From contig NZ_JAKZFS010000001.1 in assembly GCF_022808915.1 (NCBI RefSeq), forward strand, positions 1,380,644 to 1,444,643: a DNA stretch of 64,000 nucleotides, given 5' to 3'. This DNA comes from Fundidesulfovibrio terrae. Lineage in GTDB: Bacteria > Desulfobacterota > Desulfovibrionia > Desulfovibrionales > Desulfovibrionaceae. Both the position numbers and the translations under genes were made by a program. This document shows, piece by piece, positions 5,899 to 24,976 of this stretch (position 1 is the stretch's first letter; the number at the start of each line of letters is the position of its first letter). The notes beneath the pieces were generated by a model. That model was not told the DNA's origin. It was given only the letters and a program-made list of their open reading frames with translations, and searched no databases.

Positions 5899-5970
5899 CT
5901 AACGGCGTTCCAGGAGATTTATGCGGAGGCCACGGGGGAACTTTCCCCAAGCAATAAGGAGCGGCATCGA

Positions 5971-6078: not shown

Positions 6079-6139
6079 GCGTCGCGGACGTTCGCTTCGC
6101 GTCGTTTTTCAGGACGGAGAACATGTTCACGGGCCCGTT

Positions 6140-6535: not shown

Positions 6536-6574
6536 GGTCGCAATCTCGCTTTGCCGGGTGGCCCGGCTTACGCG

Positions 6575-7747: not shown

Positions 7748-7756
7748 GGCGGACTC

Positions 7757-7774
7757 TTTGTGCATGCGCACAAA
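7757..7774. promoter_or_regulatory. Palindromic candidate operator upstream of cdaR
   Basis: Perfect 7-bp inverted arms TTTGTGC and GCACAAA separated by four bases, ten bases upstream of the preferred cdaR start. Position and symmetry suit autoregulation, or joint control of the divergent permease operon by the CdaR-type protein. The binding protein is inferred from position only. Confidence 0.55.
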
Positions 7775-8016
7775 ATCGCGCACGCCGGATGTTGATTTTC
7801 CGTCAAGATGTCAATTGAAACTCCTCTTAATTCAAAGCAAAGTTCTCCACAATGAGAAATATTCCCGGGCTGGAAGCGCTTTTCATTTGTGCCGCTGCTC
7901 CAAACGCCCGGATGGTCCGCGCCTCTGCGCGGTCCCGGCCGCCGGGCGTGTTCCGCCGGACGCCGCGTCTTGAAACGACCCCCGGGAGTCCGGGGTGAAT
8001 ACTCAAGGAGGACGGT

Positions 8017-9660
8017 ATGGATTGGAAGCAGATTTACGATCCCCTGGGCAACATCTGGCTGTCGGCAGCGGTGGCGGGCATCCCGCTCTACATTCTTTTC
8101 TACCTTCTGGCCGTGAAACGGGCCAAGGGGCACGTGGCGGCGTTCTGCGCCGTAACCACGGCGCTTCTGCTCTCCATCTTCGTATGGAAAATGCCCGTGT
8201 CCCTGGCGCTCAACTCCTTCGCCTACGGCGCCCTCTTCGGCATCTTCCCCATCGTCTGGATCGTGATCTGCGGCGTGTGGGTCTACTTCATGACCGTGGA
8301 ATCCGGCGAATTCGAGATCATCAAGAACTCACTGGCCTCGATAACCGATGACCGAAGGCTCCAGGCGCTGTTCATCGCCTTCGCCTTCGGCGCGTTCATC
8401 GAAGGCACGGCGGGCTTCGGCACCCCCGTGGCCATCACCGCAGCCATGCTGGTGGGCCTCGGGTTCAACCCCACCTACGCGGCGGCCATCTGCCTCATCG
8501 CCAACACCGCGCCTGTGGCCTTCGGTTCCATCGGCATTCCCCTGGTCACGGCCGCCAACGTCACCGGCCTTGACCTTATGACCCTTTCCAAGATCGCCGG
8601 GCGTCAGCTGCCGCTTCTGTCCATCATCGTGCCCCTGTGGCTGTCCGTGACCATGTGCGGCTTCAAGCGCTCCATGGAGATCATGCCCGCCATCCTGACC
8701 GCGGGCATCGCCTTTGCGGCAGCCCAGTTCCTCTTCTCCAACTTCCACGGCCCCTACCTGCCGGACATCATGTCCGCCATCGTGACCATCCTGGCCCTGC
8801 TGGCCCTTCTGAAGGTCTGGAAGCCCAAGGCCGTGTGGCATTTCCCCGACGAGCCCGCGCCCACCGGCCAGAACAGGTGCGACTACACCGCCGGGCAGGT
8901 GCTGCGCGCCTGGGGCCCCTACATCGTGCTGGCCGTGATGGTGCTCCTCTGGGGCCTGCAGGACATCAAGGCCCTGCTCGCGCCCATCGGCTTCACCTTC
9001 CAGTGGCCCGGCCTGCACAACTTGGTGACCAAGATGCCTCCCATCGTCCCTGAGGGCATCCCGGCCGCCAAGGCCTTGTACCCGGCCATCTACAACTTCA
9101 ACTTCGGTCAGGCAGCGGGCACGGCCGTACTCATCGGCGGACTCATCTCGGTGTCCTTCATGCCCAACTACGGATACGGCAAGGCCATCGCCTGCCTGGG
9201 CGGCACCATCAAGAAGATGGTCTTTCCCATCATCACCATCGCCATGATCCTGGCCATCGCCTACGTCTACAACTACTCCGGCCTGTCGGCCACCATGGGC
9301 CTGGCCTTCGCCAACACGGGTGCCTTCTTCCCGTTCTTCGCGCCGATACTCGGCTGGCTGGGCGTGTTCCTCACCGGTTCGGACACCTCCTCCAACGCCC
9401 TGTTCGGCAACCTGCAGAAGACCACCGCCCAGCAGATCGGCGTCAGCCCCGAGCTGTGCGTGGCCGCCAACTCCACCGGCGGCGTCACCGGCAAGATGAT
9501 CTCGCCCCAGTCCATCTCCGTGGCCACGGCGGCCACCGGCCTGGTGGGCCACGAGGGCGACATCTTCCGCTTCAACCTGTTCCACTCGCTTGCCATGGTC
9601 ATGGTGCTGTGCGTACTGACCATCGCGCAAGCCTACGTGCTCAAGTGGATGCTGCCCTAG
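8017..9660 (+). CDS. LldP/GlcA-family hydroxycarboxylate permease (probable glycerate/glycolate/lactate uptake)
   Basis: A 547-residue secondary transporter of the lactate permease family with about 13 hydrophobic segments. Family hallmarks include FGAFIEGTAGFGTPVAI, IANTAPVAFGSIGIPL, the late FLTGSDTSSNALFG and the C-terminal TGGVTGKMISPQSISVATAA. The family imports L-lactate, D-lactate and glycolate with protons. A strong AAGGAGG site precedes the ATG. It is 91 bases upstream of a glycerate 2-kinase and divergent from cdaR. The actual substrate may therefore be D-glycerate or glycolate rather than lactate; that is inference from context. Confidence 0.9.
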   Translation: MDWKQIYDPLGNIWLSAAVAGIPLYILFYLLAVKRAKGHVAAFCAVTTALLLSIFVWKMPVSLALNSFAYGALFGIFPIVWIVICGVWVYFMTVESGEFEIIKNSLASITDDRRLQALFIAFAFGAFIEGTAGFGTPVAITAAMLVGLGFNPTYAAAICLIANTAPVAFGSIGIPLVTAANVTGLDLMTLSKIAGRQLPLLSIIVPLWLSVTMCGFKRSMEIMPAILTAGIAFAAAQFLFSNFHGPYLPDIMSAIVTILALLALLKVWKPKAVWHFPDEPAPTGQNRCDYTAGQVLRAWGPYIVLAVMVLLWGLQDIKALLAPIGFTFQWPGLHNLVTKMPPIVPEGIPAAKALYPAIYNFNFGQAAGTAVLIGGLISVSFMPNYGYGKAIACLGGTIKKMVFPIITIAMILAIAYVYNYSGLSATMGLAFANTGAFFPFFAPILGWLGVFLTGSDTSSNALFGNLQKTTAQQIGVSPELCVAANSTGGVTGKMISPQSISVATAATGLVGHEGDIFRFNLFHSLAMVMVLCVLTIAQAYVLKWMLP

Positions 9661-9698
9661 CCTCCGCGAGGGACCGCTTGGCGAACTGACGAACCGTG

Positions 9699-9730
9699 CG
9701 CGGGGATCGGGTGAAAGCCCGGTCCTCGCG
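9699..9730 (+). other. Stable RNA hairpin between permease and glycerate kinase genes
   Basis: A 13-bp stem including two G-U pairs, with loop TGAAAG, sits between the permease stop (9660) and the ribosome binding site of the kinase gene. There is no T tract, so it is more likely an mRNA-stabilising or expression-tuning hairpin within an operon than a terminator. Confidence 0.5.
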
Positions 9731-9751
9731 GACATGAAGAGAGAGGTGCCC

Positions 9752-11122
9752 ATGCGCGAATTCGAACACCTGACCCAGATGTTCACGGCGGCCCTGGACC
9801 GGGTCGACCCCTACAAGATGATCGTCAACCACGTGCGCCTGGAGGGCCCGCGGCTGGTCGTGTCCTTCGAGAACGAGCGCCACGAGGTGAACCTGGACGA
9901 CTATTCCCGGGTGCTGGTGCTGGGCGCGGGCAAGGCGTCGGCCAGGATGGGCAAGGCCCTGGAGGACATCCTGGGCGACCGCATCACTAAGGGGCTCATC
10001 TCGGTCAAGTACGGCCACGCCGAACCCCTCAGGCACATCGAGGTGGTGGAGTCCGCCCACCCCACGCCGGACGAGCAGGGCGCGGGCGCGGCCCTGCGCA
10101 TCGCGGACATCGCGCGCGAGGCCGACGAGAAGACCCTGGTGCTGAACCTTGTGTCCGGCGGCGGCTCGGCCCTGCTGCCGTGCCCCCTGGTGCTGGACCA
10201 TCCCGACGGCGCCATCCGCCTGACCCTGGAAGACAAGCAGAACATGACCAAGGCCCTGCTGGCCTGCGGGGCGGACATCGGCGAGATCAACTGCATCCGC
10301 AAGCACATCTCCGGAGTGAAGGGCGGAAGGCTGCTCAAGCTCATGCAGCCCGCGCGCAGCCTCAACTTCATCCTCTCCGACGTGGTGGGCGACCGCCTGG
10401 ACACCATCGCCTCGGGCCTCACCAGCCACGACGAATCCACCTTCGAAGAGGCCATGGCCATCATCGAGAAATACCAGCTCTACGACAAAGCCCCTCCCGG
10501 CGTGATGCGCACCCTTTCGCTTGGCGTCCAGGGGAAGATCGAGGAGACCCCCAAAAAGGGCGACCCGGCCACGGAGCTTGCCACCAACATCCTCATCGGG
10601 TCCAACCAGGCGGCGCTCACGGCGGCCTGCGACACCGCCCGCAGCCTCGGGTACAACACTGCGGCGCTCACCTGCGCGCTCACGGGCGAGTCGCGCGAGG
10701 CAGCCAAATTCCTGTGGGGCATCGCCAAGGACGTGCGCAAGACCGAGCTTCTGGTGAAGAAACCCGCCTGCATCATCGCGGGAGGAGAGACCGTGGTCAC
10801 GATCAAGGGCGAGGGCAAGGGCGGGCGCAACCAGGAAATGGCCCTGGCCTTCCTGGCGGAGCTCTCGCGCGACGAGCTCAAGGGCGCCAACGTCTCCTTC
10901 CTGTCAGCCTCCACCGACGGCACCGACGGCCCCACCGACGCCGCCGGGGCCTACGCCTCGGCCGAGCTCGTGGAGCTCTCCCGCCAGGCGGGGCTCTCCA
11001 TCAACGGTTCCCTCAAGAACAACGACTCCTACCACTTCTTCGACCGCATCGGCTATTTGCTCAAGACCGGGCCCACCATGACCAACGTGTGCGACCTGCA
11101 CATGGTCATCGTCACCCCGTAA
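9752..11122 (+). CDS. gckA: Glycerate 2-kinase (type II, MOFRL family)
   Basis: Phosphorylates D-glycerate to 2-phosphoglycerate with ATP, feeding lower glycolysis. The 456-residue protein has the family's N-terminal kinase domain (VLVLGAGKASARMGKAL, VVESAHPTPDEQG, VSGGGSALL, RKHISGVKGGRL, LSDVVGD) and the C-terminal MOFRL domain (GGETVVTIKGEGKGGRNQEM, STDGTDGPTDAAGAYA). The ATG at 9752 follows AGAGAGG at six bases; an upstream in-frame ATG at 9734 has no such site. It forms an operon with the permease. Confidence 0.93.
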   Translation: MREFEHLTQMFTAALDRVDPYKMIVNHVRLEGPRLVVSFENERHEVNLDDYSRVLVLGAGKASARMGKALEDILGDRITKGLISVKYGHAEPLRHIEVVESAHPTPDEQGAGAALRIADIAREADEKTLVLNLVSGGGSALLPCPLVLDHPDGAIRLTLEDKQNMTKALLACGADIGEINCIRKHISGVKGGRLLKLMQPARSLNFILSDVVGDRLDTIASGLTSHDESTFEEAMAIIEKYQLYDKAPPGVMRTLSLGVQGKIEETPKKGDPATELATNILIGSNQAALTAACDTARSLGYNTAALTCALTGESREAAKFLWGIAKDVRKTELLVKKPACIIAGGETVVTIKGEGKGGRNQEMALAFLAELSRDELKGANVSFLSASTDGTDGPTDAAGAYASAELVELSRQAGLSINGSLKNNDSYHFFDRIGYLLKTGPTMTNVCDLHMVIVTP

Positions 11123-11183
11123 GGGAGCGGTGCGCGCCGAGGCAGCGTCCGGCGCGAGGATGCGGCCTCGAAGGCTCGAAATC

Positions 11184-11213
11184 AAAGGGCCGGGAGTCTC
11201 CTTCCGGCCCTTT
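11184..11213 (+). terminator. Terminator-like hairpin after glycerate kinase
   Basis: A 10-bp perfect stem (AAAGGGCCGG with CCGGCCCTTT) around a ten-base loop. The trailing T run belongs to the stem end, and only three T residues precede CG, so it is a moderate terminator. It lies about 60 bases past the kinase stop and before the next gene. Confidence 0.65.
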
Positions 11214-11309
11214 CGTGCGTGAGGAGGGCAGCGGCGGACGCAAGTCCATTGTTCTTTTCGGGAGGCTGCTTTAAGGAAAACACTCAATACATCCGCCAGG
11301 GAGGATGCC

Positions 11310-12218
11310 ATGAACGGCATGAAGCGTGTCTGCGGCTTGTGCGCGGTGCTCTGTCTCCTCTGTACGAACCCGGCTCACGCCGCAGCCAAGGAGGAACTCA
11401 TGGGCAGCACCATGGTGGGGGACGTGGCGGTCTTCATTCTTTCGGACGGATACCGCGATCTGGACGCCAGCCTCTTTCTGGCCATCGATTCCGGACAGGT
11501 CGCGGCCGTCAAGGATATCTATCCCGGCGGGAAGACACGCAACTCGCTCAACACCTTTCTCCTCAAGTCCGGGGGCAGGCTCGTGCTGGTGGACACCGGC
11601 GGGGGAAGCCTCCTGGGGTCGGACGCAGGGGGGCTGCCCAAGGCGCTGGCAGCGGCCGGGTTCACCCCGCAGGACGTCACCGACGTGATCCTGACCCATG
11701 TCCACCGCGACCACATCGGCGGACTGGGCCTTGGCGGCAGGGCGGCCTTCCCAGGCGCCGTGATCCACATCTCCAAGGTCGAGCACGACTTCTGGACGAA
11801 CCCCGAAAACGAGGCCAAGGCTCCCGAAAGGACGCGCGGCACCTTTGCCACCACCCGGGAGATGCTGGCCCTCTATCCCGGGAAAGTGGCGCTCTTCGAG
11901 CCAGGGGGGGAACTGTTCCCGGGCATCCGGACCATCGCCGCCTACGGGCACACCCCCGGGCACTCGGCCGTGCTGGTGAGCTCCAAGGGGGAGAACCTGC
12001 TCCTCTGGGGGGACCTGCTGCACGGGCTTGATCTGCAACTGGCCAAGCCGGACATCGCCATCGCCTTCGACTGGGATCCGGCCGCCGCCGTGTCGTCCAG
12101 GAAGGTGTTGCTGTCCAAGGCTGCCGCGGAGGGGTGGCGCGTGTCCGGCGTTCATGTCCCGGGCCCCGAAGCCTACCGAATCCGGGCGGAGGGGCAAGGG
12201 TTCTCGCTGGTGCGCTGA
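11310..12218 (+). CDS. Secreted metallo-beta-lactamase-fold hydrolase
   Basis: A 302-residue exported protein. The Sec signal peptide covers about residues 1-24, ending NPAHA-AAK. The MBL fold carries the zinc motif HVHRDH at residues 130-135 (HxHxDH), a later metal His in GHTPGH and an Asp in LLLWGDLLHG. This arrangement fits the glyoxalase II/lactonase-like branch, including quorum-quenching lactonases. The substrate cannot be told from sequence. It appears monocistronic, with a ribosome binding site GGGAGG before the ATG at 11310. Confidence 0.87.
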   Translation: MNGMKRVCGLCAVLCLLCTNPAHAAAKEELMGSTMVGDVAVFILSDGYRDLDASLFLAIDSGQVAAVKDIYPGGKTRNSLNTFLLKSGGRLVLVDTGGGSLLGSDAGGLPKALAAAGFTPQDVTDVILTHVHRDHIGGLGLGGRAAFPGAVIHISKVEHDFWTNPENEAKAPERTRGTFATTREMLALYPGKVALFEPGGELFPGIRTIAAYGHTPGHSAVLVSSKGENLLLWGDLLHGLDLQLAKPDIAIAFDWDPAAAVSSRKVLLSKAAAEGWRVSGVHVPGPEAYRIRAEGQGFSLVR

Positions 12219-12319
12219 GACCGGATGCGCCGATGGGGCACTCGACCGGCAGGAGGGTGCCCGGCTGGATTCGAACGTAATTCTATCGGAATCGTTTTCA
12301 CAGACAGGAGAAAGGGGTC

Positions 12320-13030
12320 ATGCTGGATATATTGTCGCCGCATGCGCTCGATTTGATGTGTTTGTTGGCGTCTGTAGCCATGTTCACCTTGTATAACGTG
12401 TTTATCTGGTGGAAGCTGAAGTCCAATCCCATCTTCACAATACAGGGAGCCACCAATTTGGCACGCCGGGCGTGGGTGGTGAACATCATGGAGGAGAAGA
12501 ACGACATCCTGGCTGTGCAGACGCTGCGCAATTCCACCATGGCGGCCACGTTTCTGGCGTCAACGGCAATTCTGCTCTCCATGGGCGTGCTCTCTCTTAC
12601 GGGGCAGGCGGAAAGCCTGGGAAATACGTGGCATACGCTGAACGTGTTCGGTTCCACCCAGCAGAGCACCATGGCCCTGAAGCTCCTTGTGCTGCTGGTA
12701 AACCTGTTCATCGCTTTCTTCAGCTTTTCGTCCTCGATCAGACTCTACAATCATGTGGGGTTCATGATCAACGTGCCATGCGCGGACGGAAATTACAGCT
12801 CGTCCCTGACGTTCGTGGCCATGCAGTTGAACCGGGCTGCGAATCACTTTCACATCGGCATGCGCGCTTTTTATTTCATGGTCCCGCTCATGTTCTGGAT
12901 GTTTGGGCCACTACTCCTGTTTGGCGGGACGCTCATGATGATCATCGTCGTCTTCATCCTGGACAGGGCTCCGAAAATGCACAGCGATTATATCATCACC
13001 TACGAGCAGAAAAGCTGCAAACTGCGATAG
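12320..13030 (+). CDS. DUF599-family membrane protein
   Basis: A 236-residue protein with four predicted membrane helices. After the first helix comes the family-typical cytosolic stretch (VFIWWKLKSNP, ATNLARRAWV). This is followed by helices near residues 75-95, 115-135 and 190-215. The pattern matches the DUF599 family, whose function is not established. It is preceded by AGGAGA and stands alone between the hydrolase gene and a long non-coding gap. Confidence 0.75.
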   Translation: MLDILSPHALDLMCLLASVAMFTLYNVFIWWKLKSNPIFTIQGATNLARRAWVVNIMEEKNDILAVQTLRNSTMAATFLASTAILLSMGVLSLTGQAESLGNTWHTLNVFGSTQQSTMALKLLVLLVNLFIAFFSFSSSIRLYNHVGFMINVPCADGNYSSSLTFVAMQLNRAANHFHIGMRAFYFMVPLMFWMFGPLLLFGGTLMMIIVVFILDRAPKMHSDYIITYEQKSCKLR

Positions 13031-13858
13031 CGCGAACAGAGTTTCACAGTCTGCTCGCGTTTTTCGGATTCGCCTTGCGCGTCAATGCCTACCGTGTTTG
13101 CCAGGCCGCCCAATTCTCGAGGGTGGGCCTGTGGTTCAGGCTGTCCCGGTCGTTCCCCGCGGAGGGCAGGGGTATCTACCCCGGTTGAAGTGGGGCGCTT
13201 CGTTGTAGAGCCCCCATATGTCCACTGGATCGTGGCCGGACGTGCGCAAGGTGCCTGCCGTCTGTTCACAACTGGAAGTCGTGCCTTTCACGAGGCTTCC
13301 TCCTTTGTCGGAGGCCGCCTTTCTCAGGTTCCTGATGGCCCGCGGATCCGTTCAGGCCAATCCAGACGTCTGTTTTTCAGGACTCTTGTGATCCGTTTCA
13401 TGGCCGCCACTACAGTGATAATTTTACAAAAATAAGCATTTTCGTCCCCGGGCGCGTCCCCCGTTCTCCCCGCGTTGTCTTGTTTTTCGTACCCATTCTC
13501 CCGCGCAAAGCGAGACTCTGCGTCGCTCTCGTGTCTATTTGTTCGGAATCAAAGTGGTTTGTTCGACGCTCATCGGCTGGCACACCGGTTGCTATCCGCC
13601 GGCCTTCCGGCTCGGCGTTGCCTGGGCGCTTGCGGCGAGGCGTTTTGCTGCCCAGGGTGCCGCGCGCGGTGCCCCCCCCGGCAGGGGCGCGAGAGCCGGT
13701 ACGAGACAAGATTGCGATTGCCCATGGGCTTGTTGTTTGTACGTAACGGGCGATTCAACCAAAGCGTCATGCTTTTCCGGTTGATTCCTGCCGCCGATTC
13801 CGAATGCCGACCAAGGCGTATTTCACACTTTGCGTAGGCGAAGTACCATTCAGACAAA
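13031..13858. other. Long intergenic region upstream of the Cache-permease gene
   Basis: About 830 bases with no convincing gene on either strand. A bulged hairpin (GGAAGTCGTG with CACGA and CTTCC arms) occupies 13274-13300 and is followed by a pyrimidine stretch; it could be a weak terminator. An AT-rich stretch lies near 13416-13440. The remaining frames are short and have no coding character. Such a long leader may hold regulatory sites for the downstream fusion gene, but I cannot name them. Confidence 0.4.
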
Positions 13859-13876
13859 ATGAAGAAGGGACAAGTT

Positions 13877-16315
13877 GTGAACGTGCGTTTTTCCGTGTTT
13901 ATGGCTCTCGAGCTTGTGGTTGGGATGTTCCGCTCTTTGAGGGAGTTGCAGAAGCCAGTTTGCAGGATGAATTCCTTGGCAGCCGTTGTGATGATTGCTC
14001 TCGCATTGTCGATTGTTAAGGTTCCCGTTGCTTCCGCGTCGACGGAAACGATCGGGGCGAGTGAGTCTGATCGCCAAGTGATCGCCATGGTGGAGAGTGC
14101 GCAGGCGTATATCAAGGCAAATGGCAAGGCAAAGGCGTTGGCTGAATTCAATAACCCAGACGGAGAGTTCGTCAAGCATGGCTTGTACGTGTTTGCGTAC
14201 GACTTCTACGGCGTCAACAAGGCATTGGCGACCAACCCTGTGTTGGTTGGCAAGAACCTTATTGATATGAAGGACGCTGACGGCAAAGAAATAATCAAGG
14301 ACATGATCGGCATCGTCAGGAAGGGCGGTGGTTGGTACGATTACAAGTGGGACGGCCATGAAAAGTCGTCCTACGTTGTCAAGGTGGACGACACCCTCTG
14401 GTTGGGCTGTGGCGAATTCAAGAACGAAGCAGTGGCGATGGTGGAGAAGGCGCTGGCATACATCCAGGAGAAGGGCAAGGATAAGGCCCTCGCCGAGTTC
14501 AACAACCCCCATGGGGCGTTTGTCGAGCGTGGACTGTATATATTCGCCTACGACTTCGACGGCGTCAACAGGGCTTTGGCGACCCATCCCGCGCTGGTCG
14601 GCAAGAACCTCATCGATATGAAGGATCCCGACGGCAAAGAGATCATCAGGGACATGATCGGGATCGTCAAGAAGGGCGGCGGCTGGTACGATTACAAGTG
14701 GGACGACCACGAAAAGTCTTCATACGTTGTGAAGATTGACGACACCCTCTGGCTGGGGTGTGGTGAATATCGAGATCACATCTCGAGGACGTATTTTCTT
14801 TTTTGCGTAGCTCTCATACCTATTGTTTGGTTGATGGTTTCCTTGGGTGTGCTCAAGATGCCGGCCCACGTGACAACATGTTTGTCCTTGGCCGTGACGG
14901 TCGTTCTTGCCTTGTTGGTGTTTAAGATGCCTCTGGTGTCTGCGTTTACGGCGACACTGGAAGGAGTTGCCTTGGGTCTTTGGCCAATTGTGATCGTAAT
15001 TGTCGCAGCCATATTCACATACAACATGGCGCTGCAGACAAAGAGCATGGACACCATAAAGAGCATGTTGTCCAATATCACCACCGATCGCAGAATCCAG
15101 GTTTTGATTCTGGCCTGGGGGTTCGGAGGATTTCTTGAGGCGGTAGCGGGGTATGGCACCGCTGTGGCGATTCCGGCAAGTATATTGGCCGCCCTCGGCT
15201 GCGAGCCGATTTTTGCGGCGTTGATTTGCTTGGCCGCCAACACGGTTCCAACCGCTTTTGGAGCGATCGGAATCCCGGTGTTGACGCTCGCCCAGATTAC
15301 AAACCTCGATGTGAATATTTTGAGCTGTCAGATAGCTCTCCAGCTGACGTTGTTTATCGTGGTGATCCCAATGTTGCTGGTTGTTCTTACCACCAGGAGC
15401 CTGAAAGGGTTGAAGGGGGTGGTGGGGATATCGTTGGCTTCCGGCGCGGCTTTCGCCATCCCCGAGCTTCTGACCGCCAAGTATCTGGGTGCGGAGCTTC
15501 CTGCTCTGGCCGGAAGCGTATGCAGCATGGCGGTGACGATACTCATCGCGAAGGTGTTCTACAAGGAAGAGCAGGCAGATGGGGCTGCTAAAGAGGTCAT
15601 CACCTTCAAGGAGGGGGTTTTGGCCTGGCTGCCGTACATACTTGTGCTGGTCTTCATCGTGGCCAGCAGTCCCGTGGTCGAGCCGGTTTACAACCTCCTG
15701 TCCCACATCAAGACGTCCGTTGTGATCTATCAAGGAAAAGGGGCTGCTCCGTTTGTGTTCAAGTGGATCGCAACCCCGGGAACACTGATCATCATTGCGA
15801 CGGTTGTTGGCGGATTGATTCAGGGTGCCAAGATTGGCGATATCGTCAAGGTGTTCTTCTACACCCTGAATAAACTCTCCAAGTCTGCCTTCACTGTTTT
15901 GTGTATCGTTTCAATGTCGAAGGTGATGGCGTATAGCGGGATGATTTCCGCTATTGCAGTCGTGCTTGTGAAGGCGACAGGGCATTACTTTTCGATGATT
16001 TCTCCCCTTATCGGAGCACTTGGAACGTTTGTGACCGGCAGCGACACTTCAGCGAACGTGTTGTTCGGAAAGCTCCAGGTTGAAGTTGCTTCGCAGACTG
16101 GGGTGGATCCCTATTGGTTGGCAGCGGCAAATACGGCAGGCGCCACCGGCGGAAAGATGATATCGCCGCAAAGCATAGCCGTCGCCACCGCCGCGACAGG
16201 ACTTGTCGGGTCTGAAGGGAAGATATTGAATCAGACTTTGAAGTACTGTGTGTGCTACGTGACGATTCTGGGGATCTTCGTATATATTGGGAGCCTGCTC
16301 ATTCTGCCTCATTGA
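13877..16315 (+). CDS. Two-Cache-domain sensor fused to LldP-type lactate permease
   Basis: A single long protein of about 812 residues. An N-terminal signal-like segment (about residues 32-56, ending VPVASAS) leads into two tandem single-Cache domains. Each has the GLYVFAYD/GLYIFAYD, LVGKNLIDMKD, GGGWYDYKW and SSYVVK elements of small-molecule-binding periplasmic sensors. A complete LldP-family permease follows, with GFGGFLEAVAGYGTAVAI, AANTVPTAFGAIGIPVL, VTGSDTSANVLFGKLQ and GGKMISPQSIAVATAATGL. Predicted topology puts both Cache domains outside the membrane, attached to the transporter. The GTG at 13877 has the best ribosome binding site (AAGAAGGGA, six bases); ATGs at 13859 and 13967 are alternatives. 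Base composition is less GC-rich than its neighbours. I do not know this architecture from described transporters. Confidence 0.9.
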   Translation: MNVRFSVFMALELVVGMFRSLRELQKPVCRMNSLAAVVMIALALSIVKVPVASASTETIGASESDRQVIAMVESAQAYIKANGKAKALAEFNNPDGEFVKHGLYVFAYDFYGVNKALATNPVLVGKNLIDMKDADGKEIIKDMIGIVRKGGGWYDYKWDGHEKSSYVVKVDDTLWLGCGEFKNEAVAMVEKALAYIQEKGKDKALAEFNNPHGAFVERGLYIFAYDFDGVNRALATHPALVGKNLIDMKDPDGKEIIRDMIGIVKKGGGWYDYKWDDHEKSSYVVKIDDTLWLGCGEYRDHISRTYFLFCVALIPIVWLMVSLGVLKMPAHVTTCLSLAVTVVLALLVFKMPLVSAFTATLEGVALGLWPIVIVIVAAIFTYNMALQTKSMDTIKSMLSNITTDRRIQVLILAWGFGGFLEAVAGYGTAVAIPASILAALGCEPIFAALICLAANTVPTAFGAIGIPVLTLAQITNLDVNILSCQIALQLTLFIVVIPMLLVVLTTRSLKGLKGVVGISLASGAAFAIPELLTAKYLGAELPALAGSVCSMAVTILIAKVFYKEEQADGAAKEVITFKEGVLAWLPYILVLVFIVASSPVVEPVYNLLSHIKTSVVIYQGKGAAPFVFKWIATPGTLIIIATVVGGLIQGAKIGDIVKVFFYTLNKLSKSAFTVLCIVSMSKVMAYSGMISAIAVVLVKATGHYFSMISPLIGALGTFVTGSDTSANVLFGKLQVEVASQTGVDPYWLAAANTAGATGGKMISPQSIAVATAATGLVGSEGKILNQTLKYCVCYVTILGIFVYIGSLLILPH
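14087..14770 (+). repeat. Tandem duplication of the Cache domain coding unit
   Basis: Two homologous units, 14087-14419 and 14438-14770, are offset by 351 bases (117 codons) and code for near-identical Cache domains. Shared blocks include LVGKNLIDMKD, GGGWYDYKW and DDTLWLGCGE. The high similarity indicates a fairly recent internal duplication or active conversion between the copies. Confidence 0.9.
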
Positions 16316-16647
16316 CGGTAGTTGTTCTCCGGGCGTGTGTCTTTCGTGTTTCCCGTGGGGAGCCATCCCGCGCGGTCTCCCTGGAGGGGGGCATGAGGGG
16401 CACACGCCTCGGATCGCAGTTCTGATTTACGGCCTTTCGCCAAATCGCGGGGGGCCGTTTTGAGTTGATTCAGCGGTGGCTCACAGCATCACGCTGCTCA
16501 TGAGATCGCTTGGGTGATCGATAAAGGCGCCGGAAGCGGTGCCAATTTTGAGGCATGCGGTAGAGTCGTTGGATTTTTCTCCCTCGGTCCAGGCATCGGC
16601 GGGCTTTTGTACTCCCCTAAAATCTTCCTGCGGCGCTTCCCCCAGCC
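16316..16647. other. Intergenic region before the arsenic island
   Basis: About 330 bases between the permease stop and the promoter of the ArsR gene. No coding frame with a plausible start is seen and no clear terminator. The region marks the left edge of the metalloid gene cluster. Confidence 0.35.
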
Positions 16648-16675
16648 TTGACAGCCTTCCCGGTTAACGTATAGC
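16648..16675 (+). promoter_or_regulatory. Sigma-70-type promoter of the ArsR-ArsP operon
   Basis: TTGACA at 16648-16653, a 16-base spacer, and TATAGC at 16670-16675, which lies 25 bases before the ArsR start at 16701. The -10 box overlaps a small palindrome TAGCTA, a plausible place for ArsR repression. No experimental support is available here. Confidence 0.5.
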
Positions 16676-16700
16676 TAGATGCAAATATGGAGATTCAAGC

Positions 16701-17054
16701 ATGAAGACGTTCATCCGCCTCATGAAAGCCCTGTCAGACCCCAACCGGGTGAAAATCATCAAAATGCTGCAAAGGCGGCCAATGTGCGTCTGCGAGCTTC
16801 AGGCCGCCTTGGGCATAGCGCAACCAACGGTCTCCAACCACCTCAAGACATTGGAGGATGCGGGGCTGGTCGAGAGCGCCAAGGCCGGCCAGTGGGTCAA
16901 CTACTCGCTGGCCGAAGGAGAAACGGACTACGCCAGGAAACTCCTTGAGCACCTGAAGACGTGGCTGGAGGACGATCCGGACGTCGCCGCACTGTTGGGC
17001 GGCCTGGACGGCATTCGCCGGGAGAACCTGTGTTCCACGAAGCCCGGCAGATGA
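16701..17054 (+). CDS. arsR: ArsR/SmtB-family metalloregulator
   Basis: A 117-residue winged-helix repressor. The HTH runs from LSDPNRVKIIKML through QPTVSNHLKTLEDAGLV. The metal-sensing alpha-3 motif is present as MCVCELQ, the CxC pair typical of arsenite/antimonite sensors. Family members leave DNA when As(III) binds. It precedes the ArsP-type permease by about 100 bases and probably controls the run of genes through acr3. Confidence 0.9.
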   Translation: MKTFIRLMKALSDPNRVKIIKMLQRRPMCVCELQAALGIAQPTVSNHLKTLEDAGLVESAKAGQWVNYSLAEGETDYARKLLEHLKTWLEDDPDVAALLGGLDGIRRENLCSTKPGR

Positions 17055-17154
17055 TCGATTCCTTTCACATCGGGGAGTCGCTGGGCTCAATCAGGAACAA
17101 GTTCCTGGGATTGATCGGGGACCGAAGCAACGACATGGCAAAACCCAGGCGGGC

Positions 17155-18285
17155 ATGATTATGAAAGAATTTACCCAATTGACGATTTTCGAGGATCAGG
17201 CGCAATCCACCTGCTCCTGCGACGGGATTTCTGCCGCAACAGGAGCGGCCGTTGCGCAGGCGGAGAGGGCGGCTCTGAAACGATACACCCTTCTGGGTGC
17301 TCCAGCCCTTCTCCTTTGGTTCGGCCTTTACAGCGTCCTGGAGCCGACGGCCCAGGCCATCACCTACGACGTGCTGGGACTCGACCACGGCGGCAGATTC
17401 GCGGACGCCCTGGCGTTCTTCCTCTACGATGGCCCCAAGGTCCTGCTGCTGCTCACTTTGGTCGTCTTTGGCGTCGGGATCATCCGGTCGTTCTTCACCG
17501 CCGCCCGAGCCCGAAAATGTCTGGCCGGGCGCCGGGAAGTCGTCGGCAACGTCCTGGCCGCCTTGCTCGGCATCGTAACTCCGTTCTGCTCCTGCTCCGC
17601 AGTGCCGCTTTTCGTGGGCTTCGTCACCGCCGGCGTGCCGCTGGGAGTCACCTTTTCCTTCCTCGTCAGCGCGCCCATGGTGAACGAGGTGGCCCTCGTG
17701 CTGCTGTATGGCCTGATGGGCTGGAAGGTGGCGGGGCTGTATCTGGCGACGGGCCTGCTGGTGGCCATGGTCAGCGGCTGGGTCATCGGAAGGCTCAAGA
17801 TGGAAGGGCACCTTGAAGAGTGGGTGCGCCTCATCCATGCCGGGCAGGATCTACCGGATCAGGAGCTGTCCTGGGCTGGCAGGATCCAGGCAGGCGTGAC
17901 GGCGGTCAAGGACATCGTGGGAAAGACCTGGCCCTGGGTGCTGGCTGGCATCGCCGTGGGCGCGGGCATCCACGGCTACGTCCCCGAGGGGTTCATGGCT
18001 TCGATCATGGGACGGGATGCCTGGTGGTCGGTGTTGGCTGCCGTGGGTATCGGCATCCCCATGTATTCCAACGCGGCCGGGATCATCCCGGTGGTGCACG
18101 CGCTCCTGGAAAAGGGTGCGGCCCTCGGCACGGTGCTGGCTTTCATGATGAGCGTCATCGCCCTCTCCCTGCCGGAGATGATCATTCTGAGGAAGGTGCT
18201 CAAGCCGCGCCTGCTCCTCACCTTCGTCGGCGTTGTCGGCCTGGGCATCTTGCTGGTCGGCTATCTGTTCAACCTCATCCTGTAG
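17155..18285 (+). CDS. arsP: ArsP/DUF318-family permease (organoarsenical or metal efflux)
   Basis: A 376-residue membrane protein of the ArsP_1 permease family. About eight to ten helices are predicted. The family signature is TPFCSCSAVPLFVGFVTAGVPLG, here read in two pieces (TPFCSCSAVPLF and FVTAGVPLG), with VSAPMVNEVAL after it and IGIPMYSNAAGIIPV in the second half. A Cys-containing cytosolic N-terminus (TCSCDG) could bind metalloid. Known ArsP proteins export trivalent methylated arsenicals, which fits the ArsM gene in the same cluster. Other family members transport copper or zinc, so the exact substrate is uncertain. The small thioredoxin gene follows 16 bases downstream. Confidence 0.82.
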   Translation: MIMKEFTQLTIFEDQAQSTCSCDGISAATGAAVAQAERAALKRYTLLGAPALLLWFGLYSVLEPTAQAITYDVLGLDHGGRFADALAFFLYDGPKVLLLLTLVVFGVGIIRSFFTAARARKCLAGRREVVGNVLAALLGIVTPFCSCSAVPLFVGFVTAGVPLGVTFSFLVSAPMVNEVALVLLYGLMGWKVAGLYLATGLLVAMVSGWVIGRLKMEGHLEEWVRLIHAGQDLPDQELSWAGRIQAGVTAVKDIVGKTWPWVLAGIAVGAGIHGYVPEGFMASIMGRDAWWSVLAAVGIGIPMYSNAAGIIPVVHALLEKGAALGTVLAFMMSVIALSLPEMIILRKVLKPRLLLTFVGVVGLGILLVGYLFNLIL

Positions 18286-18301
18286 CTCTCGGGAGGATTC
18301 C

Positions 18302-18535
18302 ATGGAGATCAAGGTGTTGGGGCCCGGATGCCCGAAATGCCATGAGGCGGAAAAGATCGTGCGCGAGGTCGTGGCCGAAACCGGAGTGGACGCATCCGTG
18401 GTCAAGGTCTCAGATTTCCAGCAGATCGCCCAGATGGGGGTCTTCGCCACCCCGGCGGTCGCCGTGAACGGGGAAGTGAAGTGCGTGGGCAAGGTGCCCA
18501 CCAAGGCGGAGATAGCCGCCTGGATCAACCGCTAG
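18302..18535 (+). CDS. Small thioredoxin-like protein (redox-active disulfide protein)
   Basis: A 77-residue glutaredoxin/thioredoxin-fold protein with a CPKC active site (LGPGCPKCHEAEKIV) near the start and the cis-Pro segment VFATPAVAVNG. This thioredoxin-like family regularly accompanies ArsP/DUF318 permeases. A likely role is delivering or reducing a thiol-bound metalloid at the transporter. GGGAGG precedes the ATG at 18302; the frame is open further upstream but that part overlaps arsP. Confidence 0.87.
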   Translation: MEIKVLGPGCPKCHEAEKIVREVVAETGVDASVVKVSDFQQIAQMGVFATPAVAVNGEVKCVGKVPTKAEIAAWINR

Positions 18536-18557
18536 GCCCTATCAAGGAGAAAAGCAT

Positions 18558-18986
18558 ATGTCTGGTTCCTGTTGCGCAAAAGGTGACGAGGTCATGATCC
18601 TGGCCTGCTCGGGCGGTTCCAACGTCGGGCAGTTGACCAACCAGGCGGCCGTGGAACTCACCCGCGAGGGATTCGGCAAGATGTTCTGCCTGGCTGGGAT
18701 CGGAGGCGGTTTGAAAGGGTTTGTCAAATCGGCCCAGGGCACCCCGAGAGTGGTTGTCCTCGATGGGTGCCCGGTCGGCTGCGCAAAGGCCATCCTGGAG
18801 CGGGAAGAAATCCCCCTGAAGAGCTACATCGTCGTCACCGACCTTGGAATCGAGAAAAACAAGGACCGCCAACTCGCCGTGAACGACGAGGACTTGGCTA
18901 AGGTGAAAGTGGCCGGCAAAGCTGCAGCATCGTTGAATAATGAGACCTCGCGTCCCTCCTGCTGCGGATCCGGGAAAAGTTGCTGA
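18558..18986 (+). CDS. Putative zinc/metal-binding DGC-domain protein
   Basis: A 142-residue protein of the DGC family, so named for the motif seen here as LDGCPVGCAKA. Other conserved cysteines lie in ILACSGGSNVG and MFCLAGIG. Unusual CC pairs sit at both ends (GSCCAKG; PSCCGSGKSC). DGC proteins are often found with ArsR/ArsP and thioredoxin genes and are presumed metal-binding, but no activity is established. The ribosome binding site is AAGGAG. A second, divergent member lies at 23477-24034. Confidence 0.85.
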   Translation: MSGSCCAKGDEVMILACSGGSNVGQLTNQAAVELTREGFGKMFCLAGIGGGLKGFVKSAQGTPRVVVLDGCPVGCAKAILEREEIPLKSYIVVTDLGIEKNKDRQLAVNDEDLAKVKVAGKAAASLNNETSRPSCCGSGKSC

Positions 18987-19027
18987 GCACGTCCCTCGTG
19001 ATACGAGCAACACTCAAGGAGTGTTCT

Positions 19028-19390
19028 GTGCGTAACATGCTGATAACATTGGCTACGGTCATTCTTCTGGGTGTGGCCGCGCAGGCCGCCCCCCTCCCTG
19101 ACGTCCCGGCAAAAGACATGGTGACCATGGTGGACCTGGGAGCGAAGTCCTGCATCCCCTGCAAGATGATGATGCCGGTCATGGACGCTGTCGAGAAGGA
19201 CTATGCCGGAAAAGCGGCCGTACTTTTCATCGATGTGTGGGAGAACCCTGACCAGAGCAAGAAGTACGGTTTGCGCTCCATCCCCACGCAGATTTTTTAC
19301 GACAGGCAGGGGAAGGAAGTCTTTCGGCACGAGGGTTTTTTCGACAAAAAGTCGATCTCGGATATTCTGGACAAGCTGCTTGCGCAGTGA
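19028..19390 (+). CDS. Periplasmic thioredoxin-family protein
   Basis: A 120-residue exported thioredoxin. The signal peptide is about residues 1-20 (VILLGVAAQA), then a thioredoxin fold with active site CIPC (GAKSCIPCKMM) and cis-Pro in LRSIPTQIFYD. The GTG at 19028 follows CAAGGAG; no better start fits the signal peptide. It lies 12 bases before ccdA, so the pair probably carries electrons from cytosolic thioredoxin through CcdA to this protein. In this island it may keep periplasmic or transporter thiols reduced. Confidence 0.9.
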   Translation: MRNMLITLATVILLGVAAQAAPLPDVPAKDMVTMVDLGAKSCIPCKMMMPVMDAVEKDYAGKAAVLFIDVWENPDQSKKYGLRSIPTQIFYDRQGKEVFRHEGFFDKKSISDILDKLLAQ

Positions 19391-19402
19391 GGAATTTCCA
19401 AC

Positions 19403-20110
19403 GTGCTTGACCAGCTATTTCTCGCGATCAACAGTTGGATGGTCGACAGCTTCGCCATCGCGGCCGTTGGGTGCTTCCTCTGGGGCGTCGTGAGCGTTCT
19501 TTTCAGCCCGTGCCATCTGGCCAGCATTCCGCTCATCGTGGGCTATGTGGCCGGACAAGGCCGCCTCGTCCAGGGGAGGGAAGCGGCCCGGTACGCCATT
19601 GCCTTCACGGTCGGCCTCTTCCTGACCATCGCGGCGGTCGGGGTGATCTGCTCGCTGTTGGGGCGCATGCTCGGAGATGTCGGCCCCTATTGGACCATTC
19701 TGGTGGGGGCTGTCCTGGTCTGGGTGGCCTTGGACATGCTCGGGGTGGCCAAGTGCACGATTTCCGGCGGCGTGATGGGCCGCCTGAAGGTCAAAGGCCT
19801 CTCCGGAGCGTTCCTGCTTGGCCTTGCGTACGGAGTGTTGTCCGGCTCGTGCACGTTCGGTTTCATAGCGCCCATCCTGGCGATCATCACGTTGCAGCAG
19901 AAGATTCTGACGGGCGTGTCGCTCATCGTCCTCTTTGCAGTGGGGCACTGCCTGCCCATCGTGGCGGCGGGCAGTTCGACCGCCCTGGTGCAGCGCTGGC
20001 TCGAGAACGGGGCCATGCGGCACGGCGGGGCATGGTTCCGCAAGGGCGCTGGCGGCCTGATCGCCTTGCTCGGAGTCTATTTCATCTCAAGACCTTTCCT
20101 TGGTTCATAA
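19403..20110 (+). CDS. ccdA: CcdA/DsbD-type transmembrane thiol-disulfide carrier
   Basis: A 235-residue membrane protein with six predicted helices. It has the CcdA cysteines in the first and fourth helices, seen here in the contexts SPCHLASIPLIVGY and SGSCTFGFIAPILA. CcdA moves reducing equivalents across the inner membrane to periplasmic thioredoxin-like proteins. The partner is almost certainly the CIPC thioredoxin just upstream. The start is a GTG at 19403. Confidence 0.88.
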   Translation: MLDQLFLAINSWMVDSFAIAAVGCFLWGVVSVLFSPCHLASIPLIVGYVAGQGRLVQGREAARYAIAFTVGLFLTIAAVGVICSLLGRMLGDVGPYWTILVGAVLVWVALDMLGVAKCTISGGVMGRLKVKGLSGAFLLGLAYGVLSGSCTFGFIAPILAIITLQQKILTGVSLIVLFAVGHCLPIVAAGSSTALVQRWLENGAMRHGGAWFRKGAGGLIALLGVYFISRPFLGS

Positions 20111-20192
20111 ATCCGGATATGCGGATATTGCCTGTTCGACCTGGAAGCGATCTCTTGGGGAATGAAGCCCTCAAAATGCCTGGAGGCTTACC

Positions 20193-21284
20193 ATGTCTGA
20201 AAGTGTTGTGAAACGGCTTTCCTTTCTCGACCGGTACCTGACCCTATGGATCTTCGCGGCCATGTTCATCGGCGTGCTCGGAGGCTGGGCCTTCCCCGGC
20301 ATCCGCGATGTGGTGAACTTCTTCCAGGTGGACACGACCAACATCCCCATCGCCATCGGGCTGATCCTGATGATGTACCCGCCCCTGGCCAAGGTGAAGT
20401 ACGAGAAGCTGGGACAGGTGTTCCGCAACGTGCGGGTGCTTACGCTGTCCCTCGTGCAGAACTGGGTCATCGGCCCGGTGCTGATGTTCCTGCTGGCCAT
20501 CACGTTCCTGTCCGGGCAGCATGAATACATGGTCGGGCTGATCCTCATCGGGCTGGCCCGGTGCATTGCCATGGTCATCGTCTGGAACGACCTGGCCTCG
20601 GGAGACCGGGAGTACTGCGCGGGACTTGTGGCGTTCAACTCCATCTTCCAGGTGCTGTTCTTTTCGGTCTACGCGTACCTGTTCATCACCTTCCTGCCCG
20701 GCGTCCTCGGCCTCAAGGGGATGGTCGTGGACATCTCCATCGGGCAGATCGCCAAGAGCGTGTTCATCTATCTGGGGATTCCCTTCCTGGCTGGGATGGC
20801 CTCCCGGTTCATCGGACTCAAGACCAAGGGGCAGCAGTGGTACGAGGAGAAATTCATCCCCAAGATCAGCCCGATCACGCTTATTTCCCTGCTCTTCACC
20901 ATCCTGGTGATGTTCTCGCTCAAGGGTGAGTACATCGTGCGCCTGCCCCTGGACGTGGTCCGAATCGCCGTTCCCCTGTGCGTGTACTTCCTGGTGATGT
21001 TCCTGGCGTCCTTCTGGCTCTCCTGGAAGGCCGGGGCCACTTACGAGCAGTCGGCCACGCTTTCCTTCACCGCCGCCTCCAACAACTTCGAGCTGGCCAT
21101 CGCCGTGGCCGTGGCCGTGTTCGGCATCGATTCGGGGCAGGCATTCGCCGCCGTCATCGGGCCCCTGGTGGAGGTGCCGGTGCTCATCGCGCTGGTGAAC
21201 GTGGCCCTGTGGATCAAGCGCAGATACTTCCCCCACGCCGTGAATACGCCGCTCGGCGTATGCCACGTCTCCTGCAGGCCGTAG
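20193..21284 (+). CDS. acr3: Acr3-family arsenite efflux permease
   Basis: A 363-residue transporter with ten predicted helices (BART superfamily). It exports arsenite, and in some lineages antimonite. The functionally required Cys of transmembrane helix 4 is present in [18 protein letters not shown], and the conserved late acidic motif appears as [25 protein letters not shown] is the typical early cytosolic loop. GGAGG precedes the ATG. It is the clearest arsenic marker of the island. Confidence 0.95.
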
Positions 21285-21472
21285 GGGGCAGACTGCATGC
21301 GGGAACCATGTTATTCGCACGGCAGCTCCCGCCAAAGCCCCAGGTGAGTTCGAGGCCAAGTGGTGGGCAAGGGACGTGGCCCGCAGGCCTGCCATTGAGG
21401 AAGCATCGTTCGCCACAGGTCTTTCCCGGCAGGGGAATACGACTTTTCGATCTTCTCAAGGAGGGTATGCAG

Positions 21473-21772
21473 ATGCATCTAAAGAATTGGGAAGCAATCG
21501 TAGAGAAGGCTTTGTCGGATTCCGGGTTCAAAGAACGTCTGCTGGCTGATCCAGTCAAAGTGCTCGCAGAGGAAGGAACGGTCGTGCCCGAGGGCGTCAC
21601 CGTCAGGGTGGTGGAGTCGACCGACAAGGAAGTCTGGCTGGTGCTGCCGCACCACAAGACAGGCTACAGGTTCCTGAGCCCCTACGCCGCTGTGTATGAG
21701 GGGGAGGAGGGCGAACTCCCCGGGTGCGATCCCAAAACATGCGACCATCCCGCCGCCGGATGTCCGAAATGA
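21473..21772 (+). CDS. NHLP (nitrile hydratase leader peptide)-like small protein with Cys tail
   Basis: A 99-residue protein matching the leader family derived from nitrile hydratase alpha subunit. It starts NWEAIVEKALSDSGFKERLL, then ADPVKVLAEEG, VVPEGVTVRVVEST and VWLVLP. In RiPP biosynthesis such leaders carry a C-terminal core peptide. Here the C-terminal stretch (residues 61-99) ends with three cysteines (C85, C90, C97) in ELPGCDPKTCDHPAAGCPK. There is no maturase or ABC peptidase-exporter beside it. The ATG at 21473 lies seven bases from AAGGAGGG; the ATG at 21467 is too close. It could be a RiPP precursor, a small metalloid-binding protein or a relict of a nitrile-hydratase-like subunit. 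It follows acr3 and ends at a terminator. Confidence 0.7.
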   Translation: MHLKNWEAIVEKALSDSGFKERLLADPVKVLAEEGTVVPEGVTVRVVESTDKEVWLVLPHHKTGYRFLSPYAAVYEGEEGELPGCDPKTCDHPAAGCPK

Positions 21773-21815
21773 GCACCGGTTGAAAAACAGGCCCCCGTTA
21801 GACGTCTTCACGACC

Positions 21816-21843
21816 GGGGCCGCTTTCCAAGGGAAGCGGCCCC
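21816..21843. terminator. Bidirectional terminator between NHLP-like gene and LysR gene
   Basis: A strong stem GGGGCCGCTT/AAGCGGCCCC with a short loop lies between two convergent genes. It is followed on the plus strand by GCTGTTGTTT, and can serve both directions. Confidence 0.7.
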
Positions 21844-21853
21844 GCTGTTGTTT

Positions 21854-22822
21854 CTAGCAGCACCGGTCGCCTCCCGGTTGCGGCGTCTTTGGTGCGAACA
21901 GGTTTTCGAGCAGATGTCTGGGCGGAGTAGGCGTTCCTTTCATGAGCCTGTCCCGCACCATTTCCATGAACGCGGCCAGGGGAGGGGACAGCCATTTGTC
22001 CTTGTGGCGGATCATGAGCACGGCGGTTTCCAGTTCGCCATCAGCCCAGTTCAGGATCGCCAGCCTCCCTGCCTCGATGTCATGGCGCACGGCCAGCTCC
22101 GGCAGAATGCTGACGCCCACGCCGTCCATGATGCAGCCGCGCAAGGCCGCCGCGCTTGAGAAGGCCACCCCTGCGGCGGTTTCGACGCCCTTGTCGGAAA
22201 GCAGGCTCTCGAACATCTTCCTGTAGGAGCAGTCCGCCGAGGAGAGGACCAGGGTTTCGCCCCGGAGGTCCTCCGGTCCCACGGTCTCCCGGCCAGCCAG
22301 CCGATGTGCCGGCGCGGCCACGAGGACCAATCGCTCAACGCCCAGGAGCTCAACGATGAGGTCTCCCGCCCGGATCGAATCCGCCATGAGGAAGGCCAGG
22401 TCCGTCACTCCCTGGCGCAGGTCCTTGTCCAGGCCCTCCATGGTGCAGGCCGTGAAGCTCAGGCGGACGTTGGGGAACCGTTCCCGGAAACGGCGTATCA
22501 CTCCTCCCATCCGGTAGGCGCACAGCGACTCCGGCACCCTGACCGTGAGCGACCCGCGCGCCTCAGCCTCGCCTGACACCCAGGCCCTGGCCTCGTCCTC
22601 CAGGTCGAGAATCTTGCGGGCGTAATCGAGCAGGCGTTCCCCCGCCTCGGTGAGGGCGACGCGCCGCCCGAGGCGCTCGAACAGCTTCACGCCGAGATCC
22701 GCCTCGATCGTGGCGATACGCGCCGATACCGTCGACTGCGCCGCATGCAGCGCCTCGCCGGCGCGGTGGAAGCTCAAGAGCCTGGCCACGGCCACGAACG
22801 TCTTCAAATCCCGCAATTCCAT
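21854..22822 (-). CDS. LysR-family transcriptional regulator
   Basis: A 322-residue regulator with N-terminal winged HTH (LKTFVAVARLLSFHRAGEAL, QSTVSARIATIEADLGVKLF) and a C-terminal periplasmic-binding-like effector domain (about residues 90-295). The extreme C-terminus ends in DRCC, and several other cysteines occur (CTMEG, SSADCSY, LRGCIMDG), which may matter for metalloid sensing. The start at 22822 is the standard LysR N-terminus MELRDLKTF; the frame remains open upstream but that part overlaps the divergent gene. It is divergent from the C_GCAxxG_C_C gene, whose promoter region contains a matching dyad. Confidence 0.9.
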   Translation of the reverse strand: MELRDLKTFVAVARLLSFHRAGEALHAAQSTVSARIATIEADLGVKLFERLGRRVALTEAGERLLDYARKILDLEDEARAWVSGEAEARGSLTVRVPESLCAYRMGGVIRRFRERFPNVRLSFTACTMEGLDKDLRQGVTDLAFLMADSIRAGDLIVELLGVERLVLVAAPAHRLAGRETVGPEDLRGETLVLSSADCSYRKMFESLLSDKGVETAAGVAFSSAAALRGCIMDGVGVSILPELAVRHDIEAGRLAILNWADGELETAVLMIRHKDKWLSPPLAAFMEMVRDRLMKGTPTPPRHLLENLFAPKTPQPGGDRCC

Positions 22823-22859
22823 GGTCCTGCCTCGTGTTCGGGATTTCCGATCAACCATA

Positions 22860-22882
22860 TCAAGAATAATCGTTATACCTGA
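22860..22882. promoter_or_regulatory. LysR-type dyad operator
   Basis: A 23-bp imperfect palindrome running TCA-n-G-n-ATAA, three central bases, then TTAT-n-C-n-TGA: eight of ten opposed pairs match. It lies 38 bases upstream of the LysR gene start and about 100 bases upstream of the divergent gene, as expected for a LysR autoregulatory and activation site. Confidence 0.6.
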
Positions 22883-22978
22883 TCGAAGACTGTTGTTAAA
22901 CGGGTATCCAGATCGAAATAGGATGTCAATCGGGACGCGCAGACGCGAACCAGGGACACAAACACAAGGGGAACCTCC

Positions 22979-23446: not shown

Positions 23447-23476
23447 ACGGCTTTCATCCATATGGAGGAATGAATC

Positions 23477-24034: not shown

Positions 24035-24045
24035 TCCTCATCAAT

Positions 24046-24093
24046 GCCCCCTCTGGGCCCCCGTCGGAGCGAACCCAGCCCGGCGGGGGCTTT
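24046..24093 (+). terminator. Probable terminator after the second DGC gene
   Basis: Nested stems GCCCCC (24046-24051)/GGGGGC (24085-24090) and CTGGG/CCCAG are followed by TTTCTC. The structure lies 12 bases beyond the DGC stop. Confidence 0.5.
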
Positions 24094-24170
24094 CTCATGA
24101 TGCATCCTTTTCCGGCTTCTTCCGTCTTCCCTGCATACAACGCCGCTGAAGCGGCGACGGAGGTGACTGC

Positions 24171-24965: not shown

Positions 24966-24976
24966 GAGGGACGTCC

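Follow-up and report, generated by a model that had tools for sequence, protein, structure and literature searches.

Two sCache_2 domains fused in frame to an LctP/LldP-type permease: a candidate L-lactate-sensing transporter

Among prokaryotic extracellular sensors, no superfamily is said to be larger than the Cache domains. The survey that makes this statement reports signal-transduction outputs for Cache proteins, one family being the exception, and nowhere in its text uses 'transporter', 'permease' or 'symporter' (PMC4822843). In the sCache_2 domain of the chemoreceptor PscD, propionate binds with its carboxylate between two Trp residues, where Tyr90, His103, Tyr143 and Lys156 hold it; related domains have been solved with acetate and pyruvate (PMC5062169). 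A screen published in 2025 reported that Leu replaces that His in all the L-lactate sensors found and that pyruvate sensors have His; changing Leu to His in two L-lactate sensors gave pyruvate binding and weaker lactate binding (PMC12415202). A search of the open-access literature, outside which most subscription journals and bioRxiv lie, gave no transporter with Cache domains among the papers listed and no Cache domain described as gating a secondary transporter. This agrees with the first-pass annotation of the locus presented here, which knew of no described transporter with its own Cache pair. In the same literature, 'lactate permease' and 'Cache domain' occur together in work that concerns a chemoreceptor, and the combination of 'transceptor', 'Cache domain' and 'transporter' gave no match.

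The gene described here joins two such domains to a permease within a single reading frame of the window, that is, the whole stretch of 64,000 nucleotides that was analysed, from a sulfate-reducing bacterium (Table 1). An alternative upstream start, ATG 13859, leads to the same stop through a frame that is open throughout (818 aa). The GTG is preferred because the site AGAAGGGA stands before it; the equivalent GTG of two relatives (G004 and G001) follows the same site and that of a third (G003) a weaker one, AGAAGGA; no equivalent start was seen in G002 or in a Holophagaceae MAG. The domain search bore out what had first been read from the letters, a Cache part and an LldP-type permease in one frame. 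In Pfam, PF17200 and PF08269 each match two stretches of the protein, with sCache_2 membership at 79.9 bits against a gathering score of 25 in two stretches, and PF02652 (Lactate_perm) matches the permease part with 471 bits against a cut-off of 27. The NCBIfam model TIGR00795 (454 bits, cut-off 341) places this part in the LctP/LldP family, with scores under the equivalog cut-offs of LldP (918) and GlcA (1121). Neither database revealed a cytoplasmic output domain of a chemoreceptor, histidine kinase or cyclase in the fusion protein; two signalling models are among the NCBIfam matches, and both cover the Cache part only. The Pfam matches include no DctP/TTT-type binding domain and no QM-type membrane subunits. 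The Cache-permease architecture of the gene is certain.

Table 1. Features of the fusion gene, with positions in the window
Feature	Position	Strand	Basis
Ribosome-binding site AGAAGGGA, before GTG 13877	13863..13870	+	Read from sequence; recurs in relatives
Whole gene: signal peptide, two sCache_2 domains and LctP/LldP permease, 812 aa	13877..16315	+	Frame; profile matches
Signal peptide, long n-region, cleavage after ASA	13877..14038	+	Read by eye; hydrophobic stretch; fast-evolving block
Cache copy 1, residues 74-187 from ATG	14078..14419	+	Profile match; pocket alignment; Cache fold in model
Cache copy 1 pocket: Y110 F112 Y114 L123 Y162 W164 K169		+	Pocket alignment; numbers hand-counted
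Cache copy 2, residues 191-304 from ATG	14429..14770	+	Profile match; pocket alignment; Cache fold in model
Cache copy 2 pocket: Y227 F229 Y231 L240 Y279 W281 K286		+	Pocket alignment; numbers hand-counted
Complete LctP/LldP permease, Pfam residues 315-810 from ATG	14801..16288	+	Profiles; model; Bacillota type in trees

A sequencing error that joins two genes, named in the first-pass annotation as a threat to its reading, was rejected because the junction is open in six genomes, with neither a stop nor a frameshift between Cache and permease, and because dN/dS is low. Values for Cache 1, Cache 2 and the permease range from 0.05 to 0.23 in six pairs, the ratios being rough with dS above 1 in most; the Cache copies and the permease are under purifying selection. 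The block that codes for the signal peptide changes quickly, with dN/dS at 0.66-0.93 in the five pairs for which the ratio is finite. The fusion was found in five of the seven genomes of the genus, apparently Fundidesulfovibrio, and is absent from the other two, one of them 66% complete. A family sample of 247 genomes that includes these seven (at most four candidates scored per genome) had it only in the same five, a phylum sample of 395 genomes (at most two) only in the window genome, and 297 genomes from the phylum of G059 (at most three) only in G059, the Holophagaceae MAG. A pattern-based scan of 84,980 species confirmed 267 stretches, and 79 loci were kept from the best 80 of these, a selection that may omit near kin of the window genome; two were fusions, one from Holophagaceae (L034) and one from Fundidesulfovibrio agrisoli (L045, the same as G001). 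The remaining 77 loci of this selection showed no Cache frame at the permease or in its vicinity, and no plasmid record held 80% of the query in one place. The many annotated Cache-LldP fusions that the first-pass annotation had weighed as a counter-argument did not appear in these surveys, which contain six distinct fusions, that of G002 (L008) ending at a contig edge with its C-terminus cut. Among candidates for further fusions, two long permease frames (G466 and G668, open frames of 910 and 928) lack a Cache and have only a spurious upstream frame, and the long Cache frames of 20 loci were also discarded, 17 being chemoreceptors and one a GGDEF protein by motif, the others unassigned to a class, and none having more than three predicted helices.

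A mis-binned contig as the source of the Holophagaceae copy was rejected by LepA identity and tetranucleotide comparison. The LepA gene 2.4 kb from this fusion shares 95-96% identity with its counterparts in three other genomes sampled from the same phylum and 61% with the one in the window genome. In tetranucleotides, the surrounding 20 kb correlate at 0.995 with other contigs of their genome and at 0.951 with Fundidesulfovibrio. For the fusion gene by itself the two values are 0.881 and 0.834, and contig C8 of the Holophagaceae genome reaches just 0.898. The contig that carries the fusion looks genuine. In the window, the fusion gene apparently stands alone, 846 bases from an upstream DUF599 gene and 385 bases from a downstream ArsR-type gene, with a G+C content of 53% compared with 62% for the window. 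An operon partner was rejected because no neighbour recurs from one fusion locus to another, G004 and G001, a close pair, being the exception. An Rfam scan of positions 5000-25000 gave no match, and seven terminator-like sites (7.2 expected) and five promoter-like sites (2.1 expected) were counted. Within the family, no unfused intermediate was seen, as the seven loci of close unfused permeases have no Cache gene (the permease was uncalled at two), nor does the ordinary LldP of G005. Elsewhere in the window (8017-11122), an ordinary LldP-family permease is followed by a glycerate 2-kinase-type gene (DUF4147/MOFRL), perhaps forming a glycerate uptake unit.

The ligand pocket is the same in all the fused copies. 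Y, F, Y, L, Y, W and K occupy the positions equivalent to PscD 90, 92, 94, 103, 143, 145 and 156 in 12 of 12 copies, which therefore have the Leu of the L-lactate type (Leu114 of the lactate sensor K1, PscD His103) together with the Tyr, Tyr and Lys contacts. The Trp of that type (K1 Trp103) is replaced by Phe in all 12, as it also is in 4EXO. The pocket is a hybrid: it shares Phe92 and Tyr94 with 4EXO, which was solved with pyruvate, and differs at 92 from K1, the tested lactate sensor, where the residue is Trp. Leu103 was found in one of 88 comparison domains of the pocket alignment and in none of 30 further domains, a contrast that is telling for near kin, as the comparison domains were picked for their resemblance to the fused copies, most hits of size-limited lists being fetched, and do not sample sCache_2 as a whole. 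The 88 comprise 67 standalone singles, 10 domains from tandems, four from a four-Cache protein, four from within chemoreceptors and three others; hits of up to 90 residues and identical rows were dropped from the alignment, and hits of up to 85 residues from the set of 30. The sole Leu-bearing comparison domain belongs to the window genome, where contig C7 carries, one after the other, an Fe-S gene (CCG + Fer4), an ordinary LldP and, directly downstream of the permease, an sCache_2 chemoreceptor with the lactate-type Leu (L181:4337-9313, G000). In the Cache tree, this domain falls apart from the fused copies, on a long branch, so the shared Leu looks convergent. The hydroxycarboxylate ligand suggested in the first-pass annotation is likely and is narrowed to L-lactate by the pocket residues, which indicate that both fused Caches probably bind it.

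The two copies had also been described as nearly identical and their duplication as possibly recent. The first statement is too strong, since Cache 1 and Cache 2 of the window gene share 80% of their protein and 79% of their DNA sequence, and those of the other five fusion genomes 63-69% at the protein level. A recent duplication finds no support in these values or in the Cache tree, where copy 2 from each of the five genus genomes falls into one group (support 92/79). Because of this clustering, the duplication appears to predate the genus; first and second copies are not cleanly split in the tree. The twelve fused copies make up a single clade nested among standalone single exported Caches (100/98 in a tree of 48 rows chosen from the 102 of the pocket alignment). 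The six permease parts likewise form one clade (100/100 among 36 rows). In two trees, one retaining three of the six fusions after duplicate removal and the other all six, the fusion permeases sit among Bacillota permeases and well away from the window genome's ordinary LldP. The simplest reading would be one fusion event, with transfer between phyla.

The kin of the permease also bear on its substrate. EtfB-type and/or FAD lactate-dehydrogenase-type genes lie near 55 of the 77 related permeases (from the best 80 of 267 stretches), all of them in Bacillota. The 22 loci with neither gene type belong to Bacillota (15, of which 12 are truncated), Thermodesulfobacteriota (five), Fibrobacterota (one) and an unassigned lineage (one). 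Eight such neighbours were checked by Pfam, and one turned out to be a lactate racemase. Neither gene type was found near the fusion at the six fusion loci, and in a search with this query the permease part had no PDB sequence match with an E-value of 1 or below. The fusion permease probably imports L-lactate.

An AlphaFold2 model based on a 93-sequence alignment (mean pLDDT 85.9, pTM 0.72) contains two Cache folds, each with a long helix, a short helix and then strands. In this model, residue 297 closes the last Cache strand and residue 302 opens permease helix 1, which gives a predicted joint of four residues. The aligned chain starts at residue 303 in 29 of 65 unfused permeases, approximately where Cache 2 meets helix 1, and the six fusions align without indels over the stretch that begins with Cache 1 and reaches the first helices of the permease. 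The predicted loop charges are compatible with an N-terminus outside. Foldseek matched the whole model, with low overall superposition scores, to NaS1, NaDC, INDY, MtrF/YdaH, the TRAP membrane subunit HiSiaQM and an MLEN-METQ entry, and the Cache part to 4exo, 2qhk, 4k08 and 5g4y. DASS-type carriers, MtrF/YdaH and TRAP membrane subunits constitute one superfamily.

The fusion protein is best read as a permease that senses L-lactate through a Cache pair, which would regulate transport or else supply it with substrate, and a functional coupling of the two parts is plausible. The tentative proposal, with a likelihood a little short of even, is that the protein combines a lactate permease and a periplasmic L-lactate receptor of its own, which would switch or tune transport. 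Extracellular L-lactate would bind the two periplasmic Caches and shift the end of the second one; the shift might be passed to permease helix 1, by analogy with Cache domains in receptors, which signal to the following helix, and transport could in this way be switched on or tuned by outside lactate inside one polypeptide. It is unlikely, though worth weighing, that the tethered Caches are instead a capture device that holds lactate at the membrane and hands it to the permease, like the tandem domains of GlnPQ or a TRAP binding protein. Two copies with the same contacts in all 12 cases, a protein devoid of a signalling output domain in Pfam and NCBIfam, the weak Foldseek matches of the permease to DASS-type carriers, MtrF/YdaH and a TRAP membrane subunit, and the GlnPQ precedent (PMC8025302) are consistent with capture, but the affinities measured for a related Cache domain, 23-356 uM (PMC5062169), would make for poor scavenging, and the short joint of the model would leave the proximal Cache scant room to swing and dock. 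The first-pass annotation, whose interpretation is supported in part, had named both a transceptor gated by ligand binding outside the cell and a scavenging device as possible roles.

A sensor platform, in which the Caches report lactate in trans to a chemoreceptor or kinase and the permease is an anchor or a transport-coupled input, is quite improbable. The nesting of the fused Caches among standalone ones points in this direction, as does the frequency with which a chemoreceptor gene lies on the same strand no more than two genes from a standalone single (30/67, vs 0/190 background genes). These counts rest on genes predicted in the fetched loci by a simple caller of our own and on chemoreceptors recognised by motif, with Pfam checks in five (L162, L166, L168, L181 and L194); eight of the 67 singles come from the Holophagaceae MAG, where none is near a chemoreceptor, and the other genomes account for 30 of 59. 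Against this reading, the fusion loci have no conserved neighbour beyond the G004/G001 pair, and the window genome already has a separate lactate-type chemoreceptor beside another LldP. Least probable, and very unlikely, is a neutral fusion in which the Cache pair is tolerated and adds nothing to transport: its rarity and its absence from two of the seven genus genomes would fit, but both copies are under purifying selection (dN/dS 0.06-0.23) and the pocket contacts have been kept in two copies across two phyla.

Exported Caches outside the fusions provide a wider frame for the Cache-permease fusion. Eleven standalone tandem-Cache genes were found in the phylum sample, and eight of them adjoin a gene for another secondary transporter, as confirmed by Pfam. 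Seven (L159, L160 and L243-L247) lie 3-16 bases upstream of an NCS2-type Xan_ur_permease gene, with L244-L247 being near-copies of one type and hence not independent, and L156 lies 160 bases upstream of a sodium:solute symporter gene. A strict lipobox is present in four of the seven NCS2-linked genes, and the two of their proteins that were checked have His and Asp at the Leu site. The remaining three tandem genes are without such a transporter; L158 adjoins an RnfD-type gene and L241 a PMT-type membrane protein. A neighbour with at least nine predicted helices was counted at three of 190 background genes and at four of 67 standalone singles, with no visible difference. That tandem Caches work with secondary transporters is a lead from one phylum sample. 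Its generalisation, Cache-coupled secondary transport as a general and undescribed mode of action, is possible and rather doubtful. In this scheme, sCache_2 pairs would sense ligands outside the cell on behalf of transporters from unrelated families; the pair would be a distinct exported protein next to NCS2 permeases and a sodium:solute symporter, and covalently attached, with lactate specificity, in the LctP fusion.

Other arrangements were recorded in the same loci. Secreted single-Cache proteins of about 150 aa (L162-L170 and L189-L238) often adjoin a chemoreceptor, and two chemoreceptors beside single-Cache genes have a four-helix-bundle sensor according to Pfam; such a pair is possibly a split chemoreceptor with a separate ligand-binding protein. 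Four chemoreceptors (L194:4484-6082, L195:2852-4453, L206:5176-6837 and L278:1227-2594) carry a C-terminal sCache_2 after the signalling domain, in L194 by Pfam. A protein of 583 residues (L182:4350-6101, G639) consists of a hydrophobic N-terminus followed by four sCache_2 domains, and in another (L161:7962-8951, G415) a Cache precedes what appears by eye to be an ABC-type substrate-binding domain.

If true, a secondary transporter wired to a Cache pair would allow the control of uptake by substrate sensing to be tested in a single protein whose specificity switch is known, and the Cache partner would offer a way to guess transporter substrates; the fusion suggests an importer that senses or collects its own cargo. 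With the Bacillota members of the LctP/LldP family (TIGR00795, PF02652), it shares a complete permease domain and its place in the trees, whereas the 77 other loci from the best 80 of 267 stretches have no Cache frame. With the sCache_2 domains of chemoreceptors (4EXO, PscD 5G4Y, Adeh_3718 and the lactate sensors K1 and C1), it shares the fold and the carboxylate contacts, and with K1 and C1 also the Leu, whereas K1 has Trp where the fusion has Phe; unlike in these receptors, the fused Caches follow a signal peptide in tandem and are linked to a transporter rather than to a chemoreceptor, kinase or cyclase. The tandem-Cache genes beside NCS2 permeases also place two exported sCache_2 domains by a secondary transporter, but as a separate gene, with another transporter family, some with a lipobox, and with His or Asp at the Leu site in the two checked. 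Further parallels are GlnPQ, whose binding domains have a fold other than Cache, and alpha2delta, an accessory subunit of the calcium channel. GlnPQ has, like the fusion, tandem extracytoplasmic binding domains linked to a transporter, but it is an ABC importer and its two binding domains differ in specificity (PMC8025302). Table 1 of the Cache survey lists alpha2delta as Cache with VWA_N/VGCC_alpha2 (PMC4822843). In this subunit a Cache serves a transport protein, as it would in the fusion; the domain is a dCache_1 and the protein is eukaryotic.
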